Below, piece by piece: positions 7,416 through 41,602 of a DNA stretch of 42,881 nucleotides. The position numbers and the translations under genes were made by a program. The stretch's first letter is position 1. The number at the start of each line of letters is the position of its first letter. The notes under the pieces were generated by a model that did not search any database, was not told where the DNA came from, and saw nothing but the letters and a program-made list of their open reading frames with translations. The DNA comes from a virus, in the IMG/VR virus record IMGVR_UViG_3300011115_000128, positions 1 to 42,881 of that record; one strand, 5' to 3'.

Positions 7416-10400
7416 ATTTGTAGGGGGCCAAAGCTCTTTCTGCTTTCTCTATTGAAGGTGAAAGTAGCCTAGCGTTTTCTTTAGTCATCTTAATACCGCT
7501 GCCCATTTCAGTTTCAACTACCCTCTTCAACTCATCGTTTAGAGCCTTGGTAATTTCTTCACCTTTAATTTCACGCTCAGGGTTACGTAAGCTAAAGTCT
7601 GTGGCCTTGTCCAAAGTGTCTTGGAATATTTTGTCAAAGCGTTCATGTACTTCAGTATCTTTATTAGGGTCAATGGATTTACGGAATGAGTTTTTTAACG
7701 TACCCATGATTGTTTCCCGTTCATGCACAATGACTTTTTCGGCAGCTTGCGCTTTAAACGCTGTAGTTTGAGCTTCCGCTACTCGTGCTGGAGCATAGCC
7801 AATAGCTTGACCGACAAGTTCGCTCTTTGGTACTTTACCCTTCTCTATTAACTGCACGCCTTGAGGTGTCTGCACACCTTCAGTTGCGTACCTATTGGCT
7901 ACCATCAATTTGCTTATAGAAGCAGGGGTTAGTTTTTCCAGCCCACGTTCGTACTCGCCTTGGGTCATAAGGTCAATACCTTGAATTGCATTTAGCCCAG
8001 TAGTCCAAGCAGCGCCAAACATTACTTGCCCCCAGTTTAGGGCTGTTTCTTTTGCATTTTTACCCGGCTGCGGGTCACGGAACCACATATCATTCAAGGA
8101 TATACGGCTGGATATATCCCACCCAGTTAGTTTGTTTATAAGCCCGTACTCTGCTAGCTGAGTTAGCCCTGTATTGCCTAAGTTTTCAGGTAACCACACA
8201 GTACGCCACCAAGTTTCGTAGTCAATGTCCCGCATCTCATCGGGAGCATCGGGGTCTTTTTGCCATTTTTCCCAAGCAGCTTGCAGTAGCCCCATTACTA
8301 AGCTAAACGCAGGCAAGGCTACAAGGCCACCAAATAATGTATGCGTACCTAGTACGCCAAAGAACTTAGTAGCTGCTGCTGCCTTACCTTCCTTGTTAAA
8401 CATAGGAAGCATCTTGGAGAAGTTAGTCACCAATAGTTTGGTAGTCACAAGCGGGAAAAACTTGTACATGGTTACAAGCCGCCCACCAGCCCCACGCATT
8501 AGCATAGGCTTATTGTTAGCGTTGTAGTTACCTAGTACTTCATTTGTTTCCCGTATTGCTGCCTTTACCGCTTCATCGTAATTTGTTGGGTCATTGGGCT
8601 TTGCTTTTTGTAGCTCAGCCAAGTGCAAACGGAACGAAGTAAGCGCAATAATCTCACGTGATAACCGCTCTCCGTGGTGCATAAGCCCACCCAGCACCAA
8701 GGTATTTACCGCGTCTTTACCTAGCTCAAATGCTTTACTGTTTATTTTAGTAGCCGGTTCCCTAGCTTGGCTGAACACTTCATTTGCTAGTGTGTCTCTG
8801 GTTACACCGTACACATCTACCATGTCACGAACTGCTAAACGTTCTTGGGGGGTAAGCCCTTTGGCAAACTCAATACTAGGAGCACGGAAGCGCATAGTGC
8901 CATTAGGCATTTTTTCCAAAACCCCGTATTGATTATGCAGCTTCATCATCTTAGATAGCTCAGCCATTGCTTTAGGCCCATGATTACCCGTCAATACCGG
9001 AGCGCCTTTTAGCAAAATATCCATTGGCTGCATGATTGCAGAAGACCAGCTTGTCAGGTTGCGCAGGAAAGACACTTTGACAATAACGTTTGCAACGTTG
9101 TCTAGCCATTTTTCTTTGCCTGTTGGAATCCTAGGCTGTAATGCTTCTGATGCAATTTCGTTCATCCGCATAAAAAACGCGGTATATTTTTCATTGCCCT
9201 CAAGCTGCCGTTTTGACAAGTCTATGGCTTGACGTATAGCATTGGCATGCTCAAGTTTGGCAAACGCCCGAGCCATTCGTGAACCAGAGTCATTGACTGC
9301 CCTAAGAACATCGGAGCTAAACCCCGGTGTGCCTTTGCGATGCACAAACATTTTGCGCACACTGTTCTCTGGCATAGCCGCCAAGTACGCTTGGTATAAG
9401 TCATCTTTAAGCTTTTGCTTAATATTAGGGTCGGTTACGCTAGCCGAATCTACCGCAGCGTATGCAGCCTTTAGTAGCTTGCTAGTCCCCTCAATATTAA
9501 TCCGCAAACCGTCACCGTTTAAATCTTCGGTTATGCGTAGCTCTCCATCTTTCCTAAGGTCATCTACACTTTTACCTTGCTGCCTTGCAAACTCTCTAGC
9601 TGCACGGTCACGTTCTTTTTTTGTATCAAACCTGTAAGTGGCGTGTGAACCCTTTTTCCCTGTTTCTAAGACAAAATCCCCAAAGCGGGCTAATGGGAAG
9701 TAAGGCTCTACCTTGTCGGCTTCAAACAACACCCTAACGTCTGACAATAGTTTTTTACGGGCGGCGGCAGTCAACCCTAGCTTGTTAAGGTTTTCCTCCA
9801 GCAAGTGCTGCTTAACAGCATTCATGCTCTTGTAATAGTCCCGTAGGCGCTTGTAAGCTTTCTGCCCTTTATCGCCTAATGCTGCGTAATCATTGTCTAG
9901 TTTATTGTTCCGCAAAACGTTATTTGGGTTGGCTGGGTCGTACTTAGCAAGCGTAGATGCATGCACAAGGTCTTCAAAGGCTTGGCGTTTTTTGGGTTCC
10001 GCCCGGTAGAAGTCAACAATTTCATCAGCTACGTTGGCTACACCACGCAAATATGTTTGCACCGAGCCTGACATTTTTTGAATTGCTTCATGCGCGTCTT
10101 TTAGACCGGTAATGATGTCCCCCGGCCCAGCATAAGCAAGGGCTTCGCTATCGTAGAAATGGGAAACAAAAGTTCTAGCCGAGTCGCTAAGCGAGTCCCA
10201 TACACCATTAATCTCCCCCCACAGATAACGGGGGTCACGCCATTTAGACAGATCAGCTAGAGCATCACCTAGCGCAACGCCTTTCCTAGACTCTACAACT
10301 TTTTTAACAGCTTTGGATACGTCTGTGTCTAGTTCTTTTCCAGTTCGCGGAGTTTTTCCACCAACTCTTTTGGGGACGCCGACTTGTCCAGTACTTGTAG

Positions 10401-22438: not shown

Positions 22439-24538
22439 TTACCTGCGTCCATCAGCACGAAAATCTATTCTAGGAGATCCAAGCTGCCATTGTGTACCAA
22501 GGGTGTTAGAGGTGATCTGCATCTGCATCTGCCTCCCACGGATACGGATGTAAAGCTGCCCCGTAAACTGATCTACATTAATTGCAGAAGTGATGGCTCC
22601 CGTGTTCACTACGTTTGAGTTGCCTGACTGCGTAACCCCAGAACCTGAGTTGTTTAAACCTTGTAAGTACATGGTGACTTGCGGAGTTGTCCCTATCGTG
22701 GAGCCGCGAAACGTTAAGTCAGGAATCATGCGGTAGACAAACGCAAAGTTATGCCCGTCCCCAATGTCATATTGCGCTGAGGTTATAGATGCGCTAATAG
22801 CAGTGGCAGGGACTGTGATTCCGTCATTTACGCCATTTTCATGTTCAACAATGTTGTAGCTGTAAGTGGCAGCAAGTGGAAAATTACGCAGCCCACTGTC
22901 CAGCCATGCGGTACGGGCCATTGATCCATAATACCAAATATCTTCTATGTAGTTATAGATAACATACTTATCAACAGTATTGCTACTTGATGAACAATAA
23001 AACCACCAGACCTCATTAAAGCCTTCATTGGTATTACCAAATACTTGTTCCGATTGCTGGAGGTTTATATCACTATAAATATAGCGAAGCAAGTCACAGC
23101 GCAGAGTTTGAACCCGCCCATCATATTTGTAGAACTTGTCTACGCCCATCCAGTAACTAATACCAGAAGCCATTGCTGCGGCATTAGGGCCAATTATGGA
23201 AATGTTGTCCGCAAGAATTTGCGTGCCCCAGACATACGGTGGGCCAAGGTACTGCATGGAGTAGACTGAAGAATCAGTCCATACCAAAATTTCTTGACGA
23301 CTTTGCAGGGTGGTTATGATTTCTGAACCGTGGGATAGGCGTACACTACCAGCTTGGTTGGTAACTGCGGGGAACCATGTGGTCAAGGATTCTTGATCTG
23401 ACCAGCGGATAAGCATGGGGTCAATCGTAGTACTACCATAGTCATTAACACCAAACGTAATCAAAAACCGGCTAGCATCGGATATAGTGAATGTACTCTG
23501 GGCTAGTGGGCAAGACCCATCAGACCCAGCAAGGCTAGATAGCAAAACACCACGGGGAGAAATAGATTGAACGCCTGACTGAGTGCCTCCAGCCGTACTA
23601 ATAAGCGCCCCTGTTGGAGTGGCAGATATGTTAAACGTAGTTGTAGTTAAGAATCTAACGTAGTAAATAACGCCCGGTAGTAGCGTTGTTGTGCCGCCAT
23701 TAGATAACGCTCCCGTTGTAGAAAACGTAAATGGTGTACCTTCTAAAAGACCAAGGCTACATGTAACAACGCAAGGGTTGGCATTTGTCATCGTAACCGT
23801 AGTATTTTTATATCCTATGGTGGCATCCCAGTAGTATAGTGGGCCACTGCGGGGGCCATAAACTAAGTCTTCACCCCAGTTAAGTTGGTTCCAAATACGT
23901 GTACCTACAGTAGAAATAACTGCTGGTGTTCCTATGCCCCATGTGCCACTACCCCATGAATTTGCGCCCCATCCTACCGCTGGGTTATATGTGGTTGAAC
24001 CTGTAGTAATTTGATAGACTGCATAAACTGTCCCGCCACCTGTAGTTGAGGACGTTGCAGCACTTGCGACTTGAATAGAATAAGTAGAGGAAGTTAAATA
24101 CGTTATAGAGTATTCGCCAGATACCGTGACTCCCCCAACAGCAGAAGCATTGAAAAAAGTAACGTAATCCCCATTGGCAAAGCCGCCAAGCCCGTCAGTT
24201 ACTACAACCGTTGTTGATAAATTAGTAGTGGTGAATGGATTAGTCAGCGTAACTTCAGCGCGGATTGGGGTAACGTCATAGTACGCGCCACCATTCTCAA
24301 TATAGAACTTAGATGCTGTGCCAACGCCAAGCAGATTTTGACCGACTAAGGTTACCCAGTTCCATAGGGATCGGCAAACGCCTATAAACGTGCTACCAGA
24401 AATCTGTAGCCAGCCGCCTATTTTTTCAGGCGTACCTTGGCGAAACCGCACCTTGTCGGACTCATACCAGCCCGATTCGTTGGTGTATCGTGTGTTTTCC
24501 CTATTTACACCGGGGCGGAATTGCAACTTTGTTAACAT
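22439..24538 (-). CDS. Large structural protein, P22 gp10-like stabilisation candidate
   Basis: A 699-residue beta-rich protein with no signal peptide. The opening has FRPGVNRENTRY, WYESDKVRFRQG and PEKIGGW, which recurs in phage packaged-DNA stabilisation/tail-hub proteins. Residues about 85-175 carry Thr/Ser-rich Ig-like strands (FANGDYVTFFNAS), probably a surface insertion, and a second such stretch is near 260-320. The end (RIRGRQMQMQI, WQLGSPRIDFRADGRR) resembles tail-hub closing strands. A neck or tail-tube role is an inference. The first seven bases overlap the upstream HNH gene, with a GAGG ribosome-binding site inside it. Confidence 0.78.
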   Translation of the reverse strand: MLTKLQFRPGVNRENTRYTNESGWYESDKVRFRQGTPEKIGGWLQISGSTFIGVCRSLWNWVTLVGQNLLGVGTASKFYIENGGAYYDVTPIRAEVTLTNPFTTTNLSTTVVVTDGLGGFANGDYVTFFNASAVGGVTVSGEYSITYLTSSTYSIQVASAATSSTTGGGTVYAVYQITTGSTTYNPAVGWGANSWGSGTWGIGTPAVISTVGTRIWNQLNWGEDLVYGPRSGPLYYWDATIGYKNTTVTMTNANPCVVTCSLGLLEGTPFTFSTTGALSNGGTTTLLPGVIYYVRFLTTTTFNISATPTGALISTAGGTQSGVQSISPRGVLLSSLAGSDGSCPLAQSTFTISDASRFLITFGVNDYGSTTIDPMLIRWSDQESLTTWFPAVTNQAGSVRLSHGSEIITTLQSRQEILVWTDSSVYSMQYLGPPYVWGTQILADNISIIGPNAAAMASGISYWMGVDKFYKYDGRVQTLRCDLLRYIYSDINLQQSEQVFGNTNEGFNEVWWFYCSSSSNTVDKYVIYNYIEDIWYYGSMARTAWLDSGLRNFPLAATYSYNIVEHENGVNDGITVPATAISASITSAQYDIGDGHNFAFVYRMIPDLTFRGSTIGTTPQVTMYLQGLNNSGSGVTQSGNSNVVNTGAITSAINVDQFTGQLYIRIRGRQMQMQITSNTLGTQWQLGSPRIDFRADGRR

Positions 24539-25104
24539 GTTACGCCCTCATACTTATTTGTTTTGCGTAGATTATCAATTGCCGGGATAACTTGCAAGTT
24601 TGTTGGGACATGTAACCCAGACACATTTTTCCCCCGCAATGGAATGACATGGTCAACATGCCATGCAAACCCAAACATCTTTGTGCGTAATGCAGCTAGG
24701 GCATAGGCCTCTTTAATAACCCATAAATCTTCTTCCGTAAGCCACGTAGGAGTCCTATGTATTAATGTAATTTTACGTTTTTGACAAGCAAAACTAAAAT
24801 AATCTTTGTGTGTATCCCGGTATTGCTTACTATACTCATTAACATATGCTTGGTTTTTTTTGCGCCATTGAGACATGTAGGCAGCACGTTGGGGAACCGT
24901 CATTTCTCTATACAACTTTTTGTATTCACTTTCAGCTTCTTTAAACTCTGGGTTGCCCCTTTTGGCTATTTTCCTTGCTATATTGTCTGCTTTATGGCAT
25001 GCAATACAAAACGTGTTTAACCCATCTTTCATACGCTTATTGGCGTAAAAATTCGCAACAGGCTTATCCTGTTTGCAATGGTTACATAGTTTCTTTAAAG
25101 GCAT
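24532..25104 (-). CDS. HNH homing-type endonuclease with N-terminal zinc ribbon
   Basis: 190 residues. Cysteines at 7, 10, 33 and 36 form a CxxC...CxxC zinc ribbon. A basic helical middle follows. The nuclease core is WHVDHVIPL with D151-H152, GLHVPTNLQVI with H165, and a closing N178/N183. It belongs to the same family as the HNH gene near 40 kb. It starts 3 bp after the lysozyme stop and overlaps the next start by 7 bp, a free-standing mobile endonuclease that inserted without breaking its neighbours. It is expected to cut phage lacking the insertion. Confidence 0.9.
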   Translation of the reverse strand: MPLKKLCNHCKQDKPVANFYANKRMKDGLNTFCIACHKADNIARKIAKRGNPEFKEAESEYKKLYREMTVPQRAAYMSQWRKKNQAYVNEYSKQYRDTHKDYFSFACQKRKITLIHRTPTWLTEEDLWVIKEAYALAALRTKMFGFAWHVDHVIPLRGKNVSGLHVPTNLQVIPAIDNLRKTNKYEGVTC

Positions 25105-39888: not shown

Positions 39889-39914
39889 GATAGATATCCT
39901 TACATACAAGTGAA

Positions 39915-39957
39915 GTGCATCAATCGGTATGTCGTCTGCCGGGACAGTTTGATGCAC
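39915..39957. repeat. 9 bp inverted repeat between HNH and virion gene
   Basis: GTGCATCAA at 39915-39923 and TTGATGCAC at 39949-39957, perfect 9 bp arms with a 25 bp loop. It lies in the 98 bp between the HNH stop and the next ATG, an open stretch that could also be read from a GTG. It may be an mRNA hairpin or a scar or recognition site related to the HNH insertion. Confidence 0.6.
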
Positions 39958-39986
39958 CGGAAAGCCCGGAATGGTTGCAATATACA

Positions 39987-40586
39987 CTATTTTTCAGGCG
40001 TGTCTAGTACCTTGTTAGACTTTTTCAAGTTTTCTTCTTGGGTGATTACCCGCAGGTTCCACGGGACATGCAGGCCGCAGACGTAATCGGAGCGCAGGGG
40101 GATGATGTGGTCTACAACATACCGCTCCCCCGTAGTCTTGGACATGGTGATGGCAATCTGATAAAGCTGCCGGATTTCTGATTTTTGCTTTCGAGTAAGC
40201 CAAGGTGGAGTGGCTTGCCGATGTTTACGCCGCCGAACTTTATTGTCCGCCAGAACTTGATCTAAGTTGTTTTGCTTCCATGCGTTTCTATAAGCGCGTT
40301 TTTCTTCAACAGGCCGGGAAATAGCCCGCGCTATAACCACATCTTTGTTGCGGCGGTAGTACGCTTGTTTGGCGTCTATGCCTGCATTTGACTTGTTGTA
40401 TTGCCGAAAGTACTCGGCGCGGGTTGTGTTGCCTTGCTCCCACTCGACTTTTAAGCACTCTACACAGGCTCCCTTTGTTTTGCGGGGGGCTACATGCCCG
40501 TGCTTGCAGGGCTCTCCCGTAAAGTAGTACTTAGCTCCCTGTGCTTTGGCTTCGCTGCGGGTCTTTGGTAAATCAGTATTGTCCAT
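39987..40586 (-). CDS. HNH homing-type endonuclease
   Basis: 199 residues. C27-K-H-G-H and C41-VE-C44 give a zinc site; a long basic helical middle follows, then the nuclease core YVVDHIIPL with D159-H160, GLHVPWNLRVI with H173, and a closing N186/N191. It is a paralogue of the HNH at 24532, sharing TPxWLT, the DHxIPLR core and the LKKSNK end. Inserted between the capsid gene and the next virion gene. The leader has a candidate promoter and an RBS-occluding hairpin. It is expected to cut homologous loci lacking it and so spread itself. Confidence 0.9.
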   Translation of the reverse strand: MDNTDLPKTRSEAKAQGAKYYFTGEPCKHGHVAPRKTKGACVECLKVEWEQGNTTRAEYFRQYNKSNAGIDAKQAYYRRNKDVVIARAISRPVEEKRAYRNAWKQNNLDQVLADNKVRRRKHRQATPPWLTRKQKSEIRQLYQIAITMSKTTGERYVVDHIIPLRSDYVCGLHVPWNLRVITQEENLKKSNKVLDTPEK

Positions 40587-40591
40587 GTTAG

Positions 40592-40611
40592 CTCCTGTGT
40601 TACGACACAGG
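40592..40611 (-). promoter_or_regulatory. Hairpin that occludes the HNH ribosome-binding site
   Basis: Minus-strand CCTGTGT (40611-40605), loop CGTA, ACACAGG (40600-40594). The AGGAG ribosome-binding site at 40596-40592 has its first three bases inside the stem; the ATG follows at 40586. mRNA containing the entire hairpin would be poorly translated. Confidence 0.75.
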
Positions 40612-40613
40612 TA

Positions 40614-40622
40614 ATCATAGCA
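40614..40622 (-). promoter_or_regulatory. Candidate extended -10 promoter of the HNH gene
   Basis: Minus-strand TG-C-TATGAT, an extended -10 element, right after the capsid terminator. No clear -35. Transcription would start near 40607, inside the hairpin's 5' arm, so its mRNA could not close the full stem. Confidence 0.5.
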
Positions 40623-40635
40623 TAAAATCGTAGGT

Positions 40636-40660
40636 AAAGAAAAAGGCCCCGAAGGGCCTT
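40636..40660 (-). terminator. Terminator after the major capsid gene
   Basis: Minus-strand AAGGCCC, TTCG tetraloop, GGGCCTT, then TTTCTTT. A 7 bp stem with an unusually stable UUCG loop, about 24 nt downstream of the capsid stop. It limits read-through from the very strong capsid transcript into the HNH gene. Confidence 0.88.
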
Positions 40661-40684: not shown

Positions 40685-41602
40685 TTAGGACGAACCGGGC
40701 GATCCGAAGATACCCAGAGGGTCAGACCAGCCGAAGCTGTAACGCTCACGGGCCTTGTAACGGACATTTCCGGTGTCAAAATCACCGTCCATTGAGTTAG
40801 CCAGAGGCGAACGCACAAAGTGCTTCATACCATTAGGTACGTCAGTGGTCAGATACCAACCATTGGTGTCGGTCAAGAAGTGGTTAACGGTGTAACCTTC
40901 AGGGATCGAACCGTTGTTCTTCAGCGCGTTGATATCGTTGTCGGTAGTGCCAACACGCAGGCTGGTTTCCAACAGACGGGTAGCAACGAACATCAGAGCA
41001 GGCGGAATAATCAACTTCTTAGGCTTAGCTGCGATCAGCAGGCCACGCTCGTCTGTCCAAGCAGCGATTTGAATAACGGCGGCTTCCAAGGAAGTTTCGT
41101 TAAGGTCAGCGCCAGTTGTAGGACGGTTTGAGTTAGTACCACCAGATACCAGAGGATGAGCAGTGCTGAACAAAGGCACGCCATCACCACCGTAGTACGC
41201 AGCAGAGTTAGTGAAGCCATTGTTGATAACAGCAGCAGCTTTAACCTGCTTGGTATACGCCATAGCACGAGCCAGACCTTTAGTGTAACGAGCAGACAAA
41301 CTGTCGTACAAGTTATCTTCAATCGCCTCTTCAGTGATTGAGAAACCCAAAGCAATGGTTTCGTGGTTGTAGCGGGTAGTCCATGCTTCTTGAGCATTGT
41401 CATAAGCGATGGCAGAGCCCTCGTTCTTAACAGGTGCAGCAGAGAAGCCAGACAGCTTCGTCTCTTCTTCAAAAGAACGCTCGGAGGTTTCAGTGTCATA
41501 AATTTCTTTATGTTCTTCACCGTAACGAGCGTACTCAAGTCCGAACAAAGCATTCAGTCCGGGGAGCAGTTCTTTAAGTAGTTGTGCGCGTGAAATAGCC
41601 AT
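40685..41602 (-). CDS. Major capsid protein, HK97 fold
   Basis: 305 residues. The start AISRAQLLKELLPGLNALFG, then KEIYDTETSERSFEEETKLSG, YNHETIALGFSITEEAIEDN and ARAMAYTKQVKAAAVINNGF, followed by FSTAHPLVSGG, are hallmarks of a capsid family with HK97 fold used by many short-tailed and other phages. There is no attached scaffold or protease domain. AAAGGAGC precedes the ATG. The gene has its own terminator, consistent with very high late expression. The decoration-like protein lies 13 bp upstream. Confidence 0.93.
   Translation of the reverse strand: MAISRAQLLKELLPGLNALFGLEYARYGEEHKEIYDTETSERSFEEETKLSGFSAAPVKNEGSAIAYDNAQEAWTTRYNHETIALGFSITEEAIEDNLYDSLSARYTKGLARAMAYTKQVKAAAVINNGFTNSAAYYGGDGVPLFSTAHPLVSGGTNSNRPTTGADLNETSLEAAVIQIAAWTDERGLLIAAKPKKLIIPPALMFVATRLLETSLRVGTTDNDINALKNNGSIPEGYTVNHFLTDTNGWYLTTDVPNGMKHFVRSPLANSMDGDFDTGNVRYKARERYSFGWSDPLGIFGSPGSS

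Follow-up and report, generated by a model that had tools for sequence, protein, structure and literature searches.

We consider it probable that the viral DNA analysed here (42,881 nucleotides, positions 1 to 42,881 of IMG/VR record IMGVR_UViG_3300011115_000128; hereafter the window) contains a compact region controlling a free-standing HNH homing endonuclease gene that sits behind, and probably targets, the major capsid gene, with a layered switch acting on the nuclease gene and recoded target codons in its carriers. The order that the first-pass annotation had named on the minus strand (capsid stop, UUCG-loop terminator, extended -10, a hairpin running into the ribosome-binding site, HNH gene) was borne out, each element lying where it had been placed (Table 1).

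Table 1 Features of the capsid-HNH locus, in coordinates of the window.
Feature	Position	Strand	Remarks
Major capsid gene, 305 aa	40685..41602	-	Pfam Phage_capsid_4 (3.1e-14); lies next upstream of the endonuclease gene; probable target of the enzyme
Capsid stop	40685	-	
Intrinsic terminator AAGGCCC-TTCG-GGGCCTT, UUCG loop, then T run	40660-40643	-	
Extended -10, TGC-TATGAT	40622-40614	-	TG 40622-40621, TATGAT 40619-40614; no convincing -35
Predicted transcription start	40607 +-1 nt	-	7 nt past the -10; inferred from spacing
RBS hairpin CCTGTGT-CGTA-ACACAGG	40611-40594	-	
Hairpin 5' arm CCTGTGT	40611-40605	-	Co-varies with the 3' side
Hairpin loop CGTA	40604-40601	-	
Hairpin 3' arm ACACAGG	40600-40594	-	Ends in AGG, with which the Shine-Dalgarno (SD) sequence begins
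Shine-Dalgarno AGGAG	40596-40592	-	Only the first three bases lie within the 3' arm
Operator-like mimic of the capsid site, TTACCTGTGTCGTAACAC	40597..40614	-	C and A of the loop do not vary within any of clades A, B and C; matrix match
HNH gene, free-standing, 199 aa	39987..40586	-	ATG at 40586
Probable capsid-gene target (homing) site, ATTTCCGGTGTCAAAATCACC	40766..40786	+	Antisense; codons 279-273, GDFDTGN
Promoter of the next gene, TAGACA-16-TATATT	39979..40006	-	Kept 3' of the inserted HNH gene

The HNH protein of the window matched the PHROG endonuclease VII family (3.6e-16) and PHROG HNH families. No Pfam family was assigned to it, the only Pfam match among its relatives was HNH_4 in a single member (0.0016), and PDB sequence and fold searches with the protein returned only weak HNH matches. 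Across 39 HNH proteins the catalytic residues D159 H160, N177, N186 and N191 were invariant (DH...CGLHVPWNL...N...N), which identifies the HNH catalytic motif, and a Cys/His finger-like motif near the N-terminus was common to the same set. Relatives were gathered by the HNH protein and not by the leader, giving 247 HNH copies with 152 distinct leaders, and they formed three protein clades, A (which includes the window), B (7 sequences) and C. The window also holds a second HNH gene at 24532-25104 (minus strand), 43% identical over the C-terminal part, which starts 3 nt past the upstream stop and is without such a leader.

The gene had the distribution expected of a mobile element with a fixed address. 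A capsid gene lay directly upstream in all 247 copies, while an HNH gene was missing behind most of the close capsid relatives whose sequence ran far enough downstream (54 of these have more than 1 kb downstream). In many of the HNH-free relatives the capsid terminator led directly into the promoter and leader that belong to the next gene; in the window these two elements lie beyond the HNH stop. The histories of the two neighbours were discordant in both directions: of 1120 pairs with a capsid identity of 92% or more, 654 had HNH proteins less than 80% identical (down to ~50%), and conversely the HNH proteins of the window and of locus L001 were 99.5% identical with capsids at 90.8%. Such sporadic presence in one slot, with a history unlike that of the neighbour, is expected of a free-standing homing gene that inserts at a fixed location and would place this gene among the free-standing homing endonucleases. 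GIY-YIG-like genes filled the same post-capsid slot in four HNH-free relatives (L094, L097, L131 and L137), suggesting a hotspot that takes up nuclease genes of different kinds. A short gene for a very acidic (Asp/Glu-rich) protein occupied it in L088, L098 and L101. The next gene of the window (39889-39990, minus strand) is headed by a promoter of its own and by a conserved, structured leader of ~100 nt (CCGGGCTTTCCGGTGCAT...GTCCCGGC...TGCACTTCACTTGTATGTAAGGA), which precedes several different downstream genes, occurs at HNH-free loci (for example L082, L084, L090 and L145) and resembles a cis-regulatory RNA, without an Rfam match.

Upstream of the HNH gene, the intrinsic terminator was present in all 152 HNH-containing leaders and in none of the shuffled ones. 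It was also present in 53 of 54 HNH-free slots and therefore belongs to the capsid slot. The -10 element was counted in the 144 leaders that could be anchored: TA stood at its start in 139 of them (14% expected), and the extended TG one base before it in 75 (1.2% expected). The -35 elements were mostly poor across the leaders, with no good one in the window, and the stretch from the terminator to the -10 was variable while that from the -10 to the SD was conserved. The element was sigma-70-like (TGnTAyATT / TATAAT) and did not correspond to a T4-type middle or late promoter; judged by its sequence, the arrangement is like the T4 case in its apparent working but is not a member of the T4 late-promoter class. 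The position and conservation of the -10 point to a promoter belonging to the HNH gene itself, with a predicted start that would yield a transcript lacking the 5' arm. When two exact forms of the leader were searched for, they were found at 147 places, followed by the HNH gene at 144, the remaining three falling at contig ends or giving no clear picture; at this exact-form stringency, the leader module is not common to other genes.

Folding agreed with the first-pass proposal that read-through mRNA would hide the ribosome-binding site and that mRNA from the internal promoter would stay open. The read-through RNA of the window (86 nt) folded at -15.1 kcal/mol with its SD paired, and the predicted fold took in the AUG as well. 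The predicted start removes CCTG from the 5' arm, and the short RNA, whether begun at 40607 or 40606, folded without that arm at -3.9 kcal/mol. Pairing of the ribosome-binding site with upstream sequence in the long transcript was likewise seen in silico among the relatives, with an SD openness in long and short RNA of 0.28 and 0.50, respectively, in clade A and of 0.35 and 0.67 in clade C. One sequence alone would not prove a switch, because the local hairpin of the window ranks third of the 37 leaders tested in the genome and no good -35 is present. An alternative explanation is that an ordinary promoter is accompanied by a chance hairpin and that the HNH gene has no translational switch, which fits the stronger local hairpins at two other gene starts of the window and the only partial cover of the SD, but which we regard as very unlikely since the arms co-vary in clades A and C (0/5000 swaps) and shuffled 5' segments were far less complementary than the natural ones (-5.4 vs -8.9 in clade A).

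The 152 distinct leaders repeatedly showed an arm able to pair with the ribosome-site region, in varying bases (CCTGTGT/ACACAGG, CCTGTTA/TAACAGG, CTGTAAC/GTTACGG, ATTTCCTGTGT/ACACAGGAGAT, TTCTCC/GGAGAA). In clade C the arm extended into the -10, and its pairing with both SD and AUG reached -15 kcal/mol. An alignment-free arm-swap test, in which the 5' and 3' segments of a leader were compared with segments taken from other leaders, gave -8.73 kcal/mol for natural and -7.20 kcal/mol for swapped pairs, with none of 2000 swaps as stable. The result held after thinning to 95, 90, 85, 80 and 75% protein identity (0/5000 at each), the last of which leaves 34 HNH proteins. Clade B alone (7 sequences) showed no effect in this test, about one fifth of clade A and B leaders were without five contiguous pairs, and some leaders left the SD partly free. 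In a MAFFT alignment a fixed 7-bp helix showed no covariation and RNAalifold found no consensus structure, failures that we attribute to the differing loop lengths of the leaders; an Rfam search of the leader gave nothing above gathering scores. The two loop types of clade A, GTCGTAAC in the window and nACTAAGTC in L030, occurred at dispersed positions in the HNH clade, a pattern that would result from the swapping of whole leaders.

The same inverted repeat could instead be a DNA operator only, that is, a dyad over the promoter bound by the HNH protein or by a repressor such as LexA, with the hairpin as a by-product. In the arms, G.U and A.C changes were equally common, and sense and antisense strands of the leaders folded with little difference, so that neither comparison separated an RNA hairpin from a DNA dyad and co-variation alone is no proof of an RNA role; the invariance of the loop bases also accords with a bound protein. 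The LexA (SOS) box CTGT-N8-ACAG fits the window exactly, as CTGT-GTCGTAAC-ACAG, but it was rejected as a common cause because the spacing varies across relatives and the commonest leader type has N9 in place of the N8. More generally, the arms stood 12-25 nt apart with complementarity kept, as is easier to reconcile with a hairpin than with a rigid dyad bound by protein; clade C used different bases for pairing, often joining the -10 to the AUG; and the capsid site described below has the left part of the repeat and not the ACAGG arm. We therefore consider an operator without an RNA role unlikely. Across the leader sequences, arm complementarity is a trait under selection, and a hairpin acting as RNA is the likelier reading of it, short of proof.

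A second layer, which the first-pass annotation had missed while the promoter-within-hairpin part of its switch stood, became apparent from bases that the hairpin does not account for. The leader holds the invariant bases GTnnCnnA, and C10 and A13 of TTnCCnGTnnCnnA, loop bases that are mostly unpaired, were nonetheless 99-100% conserved in both clade A and clade C. Leader-like DNA was found at a single position of the capsid gene, antisense to it, as RTTNCCNGTRTCRAARTCNCC, the reverse complement of the GDFDTGN codons; the invariant leader positions coincide with coding-fixed bases and the variable positions 2, 5, 8 and 11 with codon wobble positions. A plain count of best matches between leader core and capsids did not exceed its shuffled control (13.23 vs 12.98), but the matches clustered at one place, and a leader matrix was therefore scanned over codons 151-305 of the HNH-free capsids with column-shuffled matrices as control. 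The capsid site was the top match in all 54 HNH-free capsids, at a median of 16.2 bits vs -2.8 (sd 2.4) for shuffled matrices (0/300), and a matrix built from clade C only placed it first in 53 of 54. In the capsid gene of the window the best match scored 16.4 bits, which column-shuffled matrices reached once in 1000. Within the leader, the mimic overlaps the end of the -10, the start site, the 5' arm and the loop, so that, in sequence, the promoter is overlapped by a putative operator resembling the target site, as in the I-TevI type of control. The candidate site lies only ~110-130 bp from the insertion slot. Elsewhere in the window, TTCCCTGTTTCTAAGACA at 9656-9673 (plus strand), in a gene for a 3055-aa protein, scored 19.2 bits with the leader matrix, above the capsid site; over the whole window such a score possibly arises by chance.

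Independently of the matrix scan, synonymous codon use was compared between 157 capsids with an HNH gene behind them and 54 without, over 256 testable codons. The three largest differences were at codons 270, 278 and 274, in and beside the mimic site, a coincidence with a chance of ~3e-5. Gly278 was GGA or GGG in 103 of 157 capsids with HNH and in 4 of 54 without (p 1e-14), while elsewhere in the capsid gene these glycine codons made up 11% with HNH and 7% without. The window has the carrier type (TCA270, GAT274, GGA278). Leaders matched their own capsids less often than HNH-free capsids at wobble position 2 (0.13 vs 0.37 in clade A) and at wobble position 5 (0.10 vs 0.19 in clade A; 0.11 vs 0.18 in clade C). 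All of these codon counts take distinct sequences as independent, so that shared descent shrinks the effective sample. The reading of these changes as resistance rests on the codon shift and the mismatches at positions 2 and 5, because the whole score runs opposite in clade C, whose matrix scores its own capsids higher, not lower, than HNH-free ones.

These codon differences could also be explained by hitchhiking or by co-conversion from a donor lineage, the leader match then reflecting something else. Conversion tracts have been described beside homing genes (PMC2988022), some difference was also seen at codons 290-303, which lie nearer the insertion, and part of the shift could indeed stem from donor DNA rather than from selected resistance. 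However, the three largest shifts fell at the mimic site and not at the insertion end, the Gly278 alleles of HNH carriers were diverse (GGA, GGG, GGC, GGT) and differed by clade, unlike a single donor haplotype, and the leader-capsid match had been found before the codon test was run. As a full account of the site, hitchhiking thus seems improbable to us, and selection on the target codons remains our preferred reading.

From features read directly in the sequences, namely conservation, arm co-variation, the mimic and the codon shift, we infer a start site, a block of translation, binding, cleavage and resistance that would work together as follows. The intrinsic terminator would halt most capsid transcription. 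RNA that reads through would hold the sequence from the -10 to the start, which would pair with the ribosome-binding region, so that little enzyme is made. The HNH gene's own promoter would start RNA just past the arm, giving a very short open leader that is translated. The same DNA (TTnCCnGTnnCnnA) would mimic the target in capsid codons 273-279, allowing the enzyme to bind and shut its own promoter, and carriers would hold silently recoded, presumably resistant, target codons. The timing may be the reverse of that in T4: because the promoter is sigma-70-like and the upstream capsid gene is presumably late, the hairpin would more likely block late capsid read-through than early read-through.

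The first-pass annotation had recognised the logic of T4 I-TevI, a GIY-YIG enzyme of the td intron, and had noted its recurrence in a different enzyme family. The clade-wide comparison and the folding of long and short RNAs support the likeness. The present case is not the earliest one in another enzyme family, as T4 I-TevIII and Aeromonas phage Aeh1 mobE are HNH genes with hairpins of this kind (PMC2988022, PMC3014915). In I-TevI, the hairpin over the ribosome-binding site forms only on longer transcripts, and the operator over the promoter shares 15 of 20 bases with the homing site (PMC2988022). The present leader resembles it, as far as its sequence goes, in longer transcripts predicted to hide the site, an own-promoter RNA without the 5' arm and a homing-site-like operator over the promoter. 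It differs in that the gene encodes an HNH enzyme, is free-standing and occurs in unrelated phages, in its sigma-70-like promoter instead of a T4 late promoter, in its upstream terminator, in a capsid gene that is both neighbour and probable target, and in the packing of three signals into ~30 bases.

Hairpins over the ribosome-binding site also occur in I-TevII, I-TevIII, segB and Aeh1 mobE (PMC2988022, PMC3014915). The last is likewise a free-standing HNH gene with a sequestering hairpin and a promoter inside the arrangement, but it is inserted in nrdA of a T4-like phage, and no operator mimic is described for it in these two papers, unlike for the present leader. In T4 segB, I-TevII, I-TevIII and genes e, soc and 49, such a hairpin lowers translation initiation, as proposed here, and in several of them it forms only on longer transcripts (PMC2988022, PMC3014915); these are other genes or enzyme families, and putative operator mimics accompany only I-TevII and I-TevIII. 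T4 SegG and other free-standing homing endonucleases cut in a neighbouring gene at a distance from where they are inserted (PMC2988022), to which the candidate site would correspond, with the difference that here it lies ~110-130 bp from the slot and always in the capsid gene. In the literature searched, mostly non-subscription papers, we found no description of the capsid-associated HNH family, its target or its leader.

The statement that ~30 bases act at once as promoter, target-mimicking operator and hairpin hiding the ribosome-binding site, that carriers are silently recoded, and that this is a convergent, compact form of I-TevI control blocking capsid read-through in a large uncultured phage family has, in our estimation, about an even chance of being correct. 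If true, the two-layer control of T4 I-TevI would have evolved again in unrelated phages and with another nuclease family, and such repeat evolution would suggest a general need to restrain homing endonucleases. It would also mean that a homing target can be found from sequence alone, through an operator mimic beside the gene and silent recoding in carriers, and would name capsid codons 270-280 as the candidate target. The capsid gene would then offer a natural example of synonymous sites selected by a selfish element.
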